This document shows positions 32,848-34,259 of a stretch of 64,000 nt of DNA, in pieces. Below the pieces are notes generated by a model, which was given only the letters and a program-made list of their open reading frames with translations, had not been told where the DNA came from and ran no database searches. Source of the DNA: Nitrosopumilus sp. K4 (GTDB lineage: Archaea > Thermoproteota > Nitrososphaeria > Nitrososphaerales > Nitrosopumilaceae); the NCBI RefSeq assembly GCF_018128925.1, contig NZ_CP067007.1:784164-848163 (forward strand), in the 5' to 3' direction. A program made the translations under genes and the position numbers. Each line of letters opens with the position of its first letter. The stretch's first letter is position 1.

Positions 32848-32982
32848 ATGGCAAATATGAAATGTGTTTCATGTGGCATCAGTTTCTTTTCCCCAATGGG
32901 TTCAGACAAATGTTCCAAATGTGCACCTAAAGAATCCCACGGTCATGAAGATCATTCATGTGGTTGTGGCCATAGCCATTAA
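32848..32982 (+). CDS. 44-residue Cys/His metal-binding microprotein
   Basis: A plus-strand ORF with CVSCG, CSKC and a His-rich end (HGHEDHSCGCGHSH), containing six Cys and six His. The CxxC pairs suggest one zinc ribbon and the tail a second metal site. It lies divergent from TrmI and overlaps the minus-strand microgene at 32927 by about 55 bases, so the two are antisense at their 3' ends. Confidence 0.7.
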   Translation: MANMKCVSCGISFFSPMGSDKCSKCAPKESHGHEDHSCGCGHSH

Positions 32983-33154
32983 TCCTATTTTTTGACTGAT
33001 TTAAGCACTTTTCACACAGTATCTCATCAAATTTGCTCACAGATACTGCAGTCCCACTGGTATAGCACCTATGACACAATCCCACATAGCAAGTAGGTGT
33101 ATGAGGGGAGGAAAAAGTCTCCCCACTTTTTGAGTCATCTGTTCTTTGATTCAT
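32927..33154 (-). CDS. 75-residue zinc-ribbon microprotein
   Basis: Starts at ATG 33154, overlapping the TGA of the previous gene by ATGA. It has a CHRC ... CEKC pair about 17 residues apart and, before them, a Cys at CYVG; the tail has His residues. The last third is antisense to the gene at 32848, which may mean only one of the two tails is functional. It is the last gene of the Hsp20 unit (34138 to 32927). Confidence 0.6.
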   Translation of the reverse strand: MNQRTDDSKSGETFSSPHTPTCYVGLCHRCYTSGTAVSVSKFDEILCEKCLNQSKNRINGYGHNHMNDLHDRGIL

Positions 33155-33330
33155 GCAAGAGCTGCTACTGTATGACACAGGACATCACCATACAGACATC
33201 CACTATGGAATTGGACTTCAGTAGTTTTGGCGCATTTAGTACAAATCATTTGCATTGGTTGACGGCATTGAGGACAAAGTAGGTGGGAATCCAAGTCCCC
33301 ACCGCATCGCCTACATAAGGTGTCTGGCAT
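33151..33330 (-). CDS. 59-residue zinc-ribbon microprotein, three CxxC
   Basis: Contains LCRRCGG, LCPQCRQ and ICTKCAK, followed by Cys at GCLYG and LCH, so up to eight Cys and two zinc sites. ATG 33330 overlaps the 60-residue membrane protein by 20 bases, and the end overlaps the next gene by 4 bases. A double zinc-ribbon adaptor is the simplest reading; function unknown. Confidence 0.7.
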   Translation of the reverse strand: MPDTLCRRCGGDLDSHLLCPQCRQPMQMICTKCAKTTEVQFHSGCLYGDVLCHTVAALA

Positions 33331-33493
33331 TTTCCATCACCCATGGAATTAACTTGTAGATATCTCCTGTCAAAAATGCAGTTGCAAGTCCTGCACCTAT
33401 TGGCATTCCCATTGCCATGCAAAGAAGATCAAAGGCAACCACTTTTTTGAATGGAGCATGCACATACTTGTTCCATGTACTTTGCGTCTTCAT
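33311..33493 (-). CDS. Small membrane protein of the Hsp20 operon
   Basis: A 60-residue protein with one or two hydrophobic segments (about 20-43), KYVHAPFKK ahead of them and a Met-rich core (MAMGMP). It starts at ATG 33493 behind a purine-rich GAGGTGAT site. It ends inside the next microprotein (20-base overlap). Unknown. Confidence 0.65.
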   Translation of the reverse strand: MKTQSTWNKYVHAPFKKVVAFDLLCMAMGMPIGAGLATAFLTGDIYKLIPWVMENARHLM

Positions 33494-33505
33494 TTTTGCA
33501 TCACC

Positions 33506-33628
33506 TCAAGGAAAGTTTCTTCTACCAATCCTCCATTTGTTTGGAAGTTCTTCAGATATTGAAGAAATCTTATCAAAGGAGGATTTGATAGAGTTTTTCA
33601 GGCTAGATAGAGACGTATACTCTTTCAT
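33506..33628 (-). CDS. 40-residue basic microprotein after Hsp20
   Basis: A basic, Ser-rich, amphipathic peptide. It begins 13 bases after the Hsp20 stop, with a strong ribosome binding site, AGGAGGTG, right behind the Hsp20 TAG. The strength of that site, in an organism with few such sites, supports real translation. No motif was seen. Confidence 0.6.
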   Translation of the reverse strand: MKEYTSLSSLKNSIKSSFDKISSISEELPNKWRIGRRNFP

Positions 33629-33640
33629 CTCAGACACCTC

Positions 33641-34138
33641 CTATTCAACTGACACTACCTTGCCTTTTGGTTTCTCTTCGGCAAGCTTGAGTGTCAGTTC
33701 AAGTATTCCGTTTGTGTATTTTGCTTTTGCAGAGTTTTCATCTACTTTGTACTTGAGTGGAACCTTGGCACTGTACTTTCTGTCTCCTCTAGTAGCAGAG
33801 ATAGAAACAGTGTTGTCTGCAATGTTTACAGATATGTCAGACTTTTCAATTCCTGGCATTTCTGTCACTAGTTTGAGCAGTTGTTCTTTTTCGTTGATTG
33901 TTTCATCAACGTATGGTTCTCTTGTGCCCGTCTCTGTTAGCGCAGTAGTAGGTTTTGTATTTCCCCATTCTCTAACATGGGGTTTCCCATCAGGCCCCAC
34001 AGTCATTTCATAGCCATAATAATATGGTCCATAAGATTGGACTTGGCCTCCAAATGGATATTCGAAGACGTCGCCCGAATTAAAAAAGCGGTCAGACAAT
34101 CTTCGAAATGTTTTTTCGAATTGGTCATCAAACCACAT
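33641..34138 (-). CDS. hsp20: Small heat shock protein (Hsp20)
   Basis: An ATP-independent chaperone that holds unfolding proteins. The 165-residue protein has a Gly/Tyr/Pro-rich N-terminal arm and the alpha-crystallin domain at about 75-160 (VTEMPGIEKSDISVNI, GDRKYSAKVPL, AKYTNGILELTL). The short C-terminus VVSVE takes the place of the usual IxI motif. It heads the unit of small genes reaching 32927. GGTGAT stands ahead of the ATG, and a TATA-like site at 34171 precedes it. Confidence 0.93.
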   Translation of the reverse strand: MWFDDQFEKTFRRLSDRFFNSGDVFEYPFGGQVQSYGPYYYGYEMTVGPDGKPHVREWGNTKPTTALTETGTREPYVDETINEKEQLLKLVTEMPGIEKSDISVNIADNTVSISATRGDRKYSAKVPLKYKVDENSAKAKYTNGILELTLKLAEEKPKGKVVSVE

Positions 34139-34170
34139 ATTATCACCAAGTGTATGTAATGTATCTTACA

Positions 34171-34180
34171 ATATTTAAAA
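34171..34180 (-). promoter_or_regulatory. TATA-like element upstream of Hsp20
   Basis: TTTTAAATAT on the minus strand lies 33-42 bases before ATG 34138, giving a short leader that includes a GGTGAT ribosome site. Assignment is by sequence only. Confidence 0.4.
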
Positions 34181-34259
34181 TTTTTTCATTAATTGTCTAT
34201 ATTTGACTGTATGTCATATTTATGACAAGATTAAAATATCAAAAATTGCATCGACAAGC

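Follow-up and report, generated by a model that had tools for sequence, protein, structure and literature searches.

A small heat shock protein locus with microproteins and a recurrent C-terminal tail in Nitrosopumilaceae

Gene content of the Hsp20-2 locus

A small heat shock protein gene followed by four short open reading frames (ORFs) was found on the minus strand of the 64,000-nucleotide stretch analyzed here (the window; G000:C1:784164-848163), which lies within the 1,645,909-base genome of Nitrosopumilus sp. K4. The first gene encodes Hsp20-2 (33641 to 34138; positions are those of the window unless a contig is named), a 165-amino-acid protein that matches the archaeal Hsp20 model NF041800 over residues 5 to 165 with a full-length bit score of 176.2, above the curated cut-off of 140, and that shares the alpha-crystallin domain of the Pfam HSP20 family (PF00011; 1.4e-08). 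Twelve nucleotides downstream, and preceded by AGGAGGTG, lies P (33506 to 33628), a 40-amino-acid basic peptide ending in KWRIGRRNFP. A further 12-nt gap separates P from M (33311 to 33493), a 60-amino-acid one-helix membrane microprotein with GAGGTGAT ahead of its start. M overlaps by 20 nt the gene for Z (33151 to 33330), a 59-amino-acid zinc protein whose ligands (C6, C9, C19, C22, C30, C33, H42, and C45) are invariant among 12 aligned members, and Z in turn overlaps by 28 nt Z83 (32927 to 33178), a zinc-knuckle ORF (GLCHRC...CEKC) with an uncertain C terminus and an uncertain start, either GTG or an ATG at 33154. All five ORFs lie where the original prediction placed them, and its description of an Hsp20 gene trailed without real gaps by microproteins whose starts follow ribosome sites or overlap the preceding gene was borne out.

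P and M share one reading frame and are separated by a stop plus four codons; in a relative, G002, this stop is replaced by a sense codon, giving a single P-M ORF of 107 amino acids. The stop of P overlaps the Shine-Dalgarno sequence of the next gene in most loci. Because the genes lie on one strand, keep a conserved order, and are separated by 12-nt gaps or overlap, with no space into which promoters would fit, we infer that Hsp20-P-M-Z-Z83 is transcribed as one message.

Divergent from Hsp20-2 is C67 (34260 to 34463, plus strand), which encodes a 67-amino-acid C2H2-like protein with no Pfam or NCBIfam match and dN/dS values of 0.02 to 0.20. At three other loci (L131, L137, and L139), a C67-like C2H2 gene was observed away from Hsp20, upstream of an apparent ribosomal protein L15e gene. 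The region between the two divergent genes contains a TATA-like box for Hsp20 (minus-strand sequence, AAAATTTTAAATAT; 34171 to 34184), recognized by eye and conserved in position in aligned promoters, a proximal palindrome of the form TGTAAT-N4-ATTACA, here with one mismatch, between this box and the Hsp20 start (34155 to 34170), and a distal palindrome, TGTCATATTTATGACA (34212 to 34227). C67, the palindromes, the common frame of P and M, and the recurrence of the tail of P described below were absent from the original prediction.

Pairwise comparisons of loci gave dN/dS values of 0.10 to 0.23 for Hsp20, 0.13 to 0.34 for P, 0.15 to 0.23 for M, and 0.06 to 0.41 for Z. With values below 0.5 in every tested pair and with the genes and their order shared by other genomes, chance is excluded as a source of P, M, and Z, and the comparisons clearly argue that all three are genes. 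Z83 (dN/dS, 0.15 to 0.45) is probably also a gene, the least certain of the set. It was found in about ten operons, sometimes weak or degenerate; in G002 its start and first CxxC motif are lost, and in G003 P is followed by a 30-amino-acid version. Its C terminus in the window is doubtful, because the last approximately 20 residues lie opposite another ORF (32848 to 32982, plus strand). This 44-amino-acid, Cys/His-rich ORF was seen, among the loci scanned, in the window's genome only.

Conservation of the operon in Nitrosopumilaceae

The search covered 151 Nitrosopumilaceae genomes, 23 of which (the window included) contain an Hsp20 of this type; these fall in genera g1, g11, g14, g18, and g22. 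P was recognizable in 20 of the 23 operons, and Z was found downstream in 21, one of them interrupted by a stop; in one further genome the contig ends too early. C67 is divergent in 18 of 23 genomes, and M is present in 6 operons. All 25 distinct full-length P sequences, drawn from all loci fetched in the family, lie 13 to 23 nt behind an Hsp20, and in three g14 genomes a diverged ORF (KLWMGKFFP) occupies the place where P normally sits. The other main Hsp20 gene, which precedes Cdc48, is accompanied by no P, M, or Z. Judged by gene content, Hsp20-P-Z forms the operon core, usually accompanied by a divergent C67, and P and Z are its constant members. Translation of P as a read-through extension of Hsp20 was considered and rejected, as the frame of P relative to Hsp20 varies among genomes.

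The genomes of g17 and of Candidatus Nitrosotenuis chungbukensis contain a second Hsp20 followed at approximately 80 nt by Z, without P, so that the Hsp20-Z pair may predate P. A quick Hsp20 tree set the P-bearing proteins apart, except for that of G172, which fell near the root; deep support in this tree was weak. The entire operon is absent from G004, which belongs to the same genus as the window. G002 contains a second copy of the locus (L145, on C46), which lacks Z and M and comprises C67, Hsp20, P, and a zinc knuckle resembling that of Z83.

P, M, and Z recur in the same order in related genomes, a check that the original prediction had named. Its proposed tie between Hsp20 and small zinc and membrane proteins held for zinc, a link conserved in at least five genera, and not for the membrane protein, which is no core member, being found in 6 of 23 operons and belonging to a multicopy family. 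The loss from close relatives that had been named as evidence against such a tie was found for M and Z83 and not for P and Z, G004 apart. The locus thus exceeds what was originally claimed for it in its palindromes and tail and falls short in its optional membrane protein.

The M and Z families are both multicopy and mostly located away from Hsp20. At seven other loci without an Hsp20 (L012, L015, L025, L026, L027, L032, and L073), a Z-family gene is divergent from an M-family gene within approximately 500 nt, and the pair often lies beside a gene that, as read from its sequence, resembles one for an ArsR-type regulator. Since M and Z pair independently of Hsp20, they would share a wider role. 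Z resembles DZR and Zn_ribbon_6 (PF07191) in its paired CxxC motifs and in weak matches that fall below the curated cut-offs (20.4 versus 25 for Zn_ribbon_6 and 16.5 versus 27.3 for DZR), but its last ligand pair is H...C and its predicted fold is of low confidence (mean pLDDT, 68; best PDB match, E = 0.38).

Promoter palindromes and the C-terminal tail of P

Of 60 distinct Hsp20 promoters, 55 carry the palindrome TGTMAT-N4-ATKACA at -29 to -40, approximately 35 nt ahead of the start, 50 of them with an exact match; G071 is represented among the 55, as are genomes that yielded no C67. A second copy is present in 24 promoters, all of this operon type, at a spacing of 57 bp in 19 of 23. In aligned promoters the proximal copy lies between the TATA-like box and the start, and the second copy lies midway to C67. 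Five genomes were found to contain one to five distinct sites each, with at least one upstream of an Hsp20 in every genome. Because in some genomes the reversed pattern, used as a control, was about as frequent, the evidence for the palindrome is its position and not its count.

The palindrome precedes both main Hsp20 paralogues; in Nitrosopumilus sp. K4, a copy at G000:C1:1529417-1529432 exists besides the two in the window. One regulator common to both main Hsp20 genes would be the natural reading, and TGTMAT-N4-ATKACA is a candidate stress operator of the Nitrosopumilaceae. C67 is disfavored as this regulator, because many palindrome-bearing Hsp20 promoters belong to genomes in which no C67 was found. 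The operators of Phr in Pyrococcus and HSR1 in Archaeoglobus likewise place a palindrome near the TATA box and the Hsp20 start; TGTMAT-N4-ATKACA is not known to be among these heat shock operators.

The N-terminal half of P is variable, and its end, KW[KR][IF]GR[RK]N[FY]P, is nearly invariant. A search with a P profile returned additional matches, mainly over this end, and the proteins that carry it are otherwise unrelated to P: most are 26 to 44 amino acids long (e.g., MTKNRDLEEYERKRLEKWKIGRKNYP), and one is a DUF1059-like protein (PF06348) of approximately 90 amino acids that ends in RLDKWRIGHRNFP, P itself being without the DUF1059 part. Several are encoded near genes whose sequences read as those of regulators, transcription factor B among them. 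The tail was also seen at G000:C1:1070581-1070643 and at L181 and L191 to L207; some of the genomes concerned have the Hsp20-2 operon, and others lack it.

When the motif plus a stop codon was searched as a DNA pattern, 20 genomes yielded 18 matches, with none for the control, and dropping the stop from the pattern returned exactly the same 18, so that in those 20 genomes the motif is C terminal only. Extended to 300 genomes of the class, the search gave 39 matches in 29 genomes, all of them Nitrosopumilaceae, and none for the reversed pattern. The codons of the tail vary and its residues hold, which indicates that selection acts on the protein. Tail-bearing proteins are present in G071, which lacks this operon; the partner of the tail would therefore not be Hsp20-2 alone.

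The tail is reminiscent of the HbYX tails by which PAN and other activators dock on the proteasome, in that both have a free C terminus and an aromatic second-last residue. Unlike in HbYX tails, however, Asn (Asp once) rather than a hydrophobic residue occupies the third-last position, and conservation extends over ten residues. A test for hydrophobic-Tyr-X as the last three residues failed because of this Asn, the tails mostly ending in N-[FY]-[PS]. A PDB search with the P profile gave a chance match alone (E = 9). In an AlphaFold2 run of Hsp20 and P, for which the in-frame TAG between them was read as Q to give a single chain, P was not docked on Hsp20 and had a pLDDT of approximately 40, a result that supports neither side.

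Possible roles of the microproteins

We favor, at somewhat less than even confidence, a stress-regulated operon in which the microproteins are adaptors or auxiliary factors and P docks by its tail on a shared partner. A putative dimeric regulator would bind the TGTMAT-N4-ATKACA palindromes and would control both Hsp20-1 with Cdc48 and Hsp20-2 with the microproteins. Under stress, cells would produce Hsp20-2, acting as an ATP-independent holdase, along with P and Z, auxiliary factors encoded on the same message. P would act as the adaptor: its variable N-terminal half would associate with Hsp20-2 or clients of this chaperone, and its conserved tail would dock on a partner shared with the other tail-bearing microproteins. 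Z could be a zinc-stabilized binding or sensing module, and M, where present, may tether the system to the membrane. Stress induction would fit a paper that uses hsp20 to mark stress in these archaea (PMC11334935) and does not cover the microproteins. The genes, their order, the selection on them, the palindromes, and the C-terminal-only tail are observed, whereas the single transcript, the induction, the adaptor role, the partner, and the stress-response complex of the original prediction are proposals.

This adaptor model is supported by the gene order kept in 23 genomes of five genera, the constant placement of P behind Hsp20, the lack of room for internal promoters, and purifying selection, as well as by the palindrome on both paralogues, the C-terminal tail on unrelated proteins, and the P-M fusion ORF of G002. 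Counting against it are the lack of an AlphaFold2 pose, the tail carriers of G071, and the location of most Z and M family members elsewhere. The absent pose and the many copies of M and Z, which pair with each other without Hsp20, would equally suit simple coregulation, in which P, Z, and M would each be a stress gene in its own right, for zinc buffering or membrane protection, using the Hsp20 promoter without ever touching Hsp20 or its clients. We regard this as possible but doubtful, since P occurs exclusively behind Hsp20 (25 of 25) and the order is kept despite differing gene contents.

For the tail itself, we read the sequence pattern as that of a docking tail that would require a free C terminus, with a degron as the main rival. 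Were it a degron, the tail-bearing microproteins would be short-lived regulators destroyed by the proteasome or another protease, and the level of P would report or limit Hsp20-2 action. The strictly C-terminal position on small proteins, several of them encoded near regulator genes, speaks for this reading; we consider it unlikely, because the tail is basic and aromatic, all ten residues are conserved, beyond the need of most degrons, and we know of no archaeal degron of this sequence. It is very improbable that P acts as a translated leader or as a coupling element whose conserved end merely positions the stop codon and the next ribosome site: the overlap of this stop with the following Shine-Dalgarno sequence would agree with such a role, but the tail codons vary synonymously while the residues stay, and unrelated proteins encoded in other contexts have this same ending. 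Returning to docking, we tentatively suggest, as a possibility short of probable, that W[KR][IF]G[RKH]xN[FY][PS] at a free C terminus is a Nitrosopumilaceae-specific address tag read by one receptor. The tag would bring several mutually unrelated microproteins, including the one linked to Hsp20, to the same machine, and the Hsp20-2 operon would be the stress branch of this system.

Among the open papers searched, none was found to describe this operon or a link between Hsp20 and microproteins in such archaea; subscription journals may differ. Little is known about stress control in ammonia-oxidizing archaea, which rank among the most abundant cells on Earth. The locus offers for testing a conserved peptide linked to Hsp20, a candidate operator common to Hsp20-Cdc48 and a second Hsp20 operon, and a recurrent C-terminal tail. 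Standard annotation easily overlooks proteins of 26 to 44 residues, so part of the answer may already lie unread in existing expression and proteomic data. The locus suggests that ammonia-oxidizing archaea have a stress module not described before and a new kind of protein tail.
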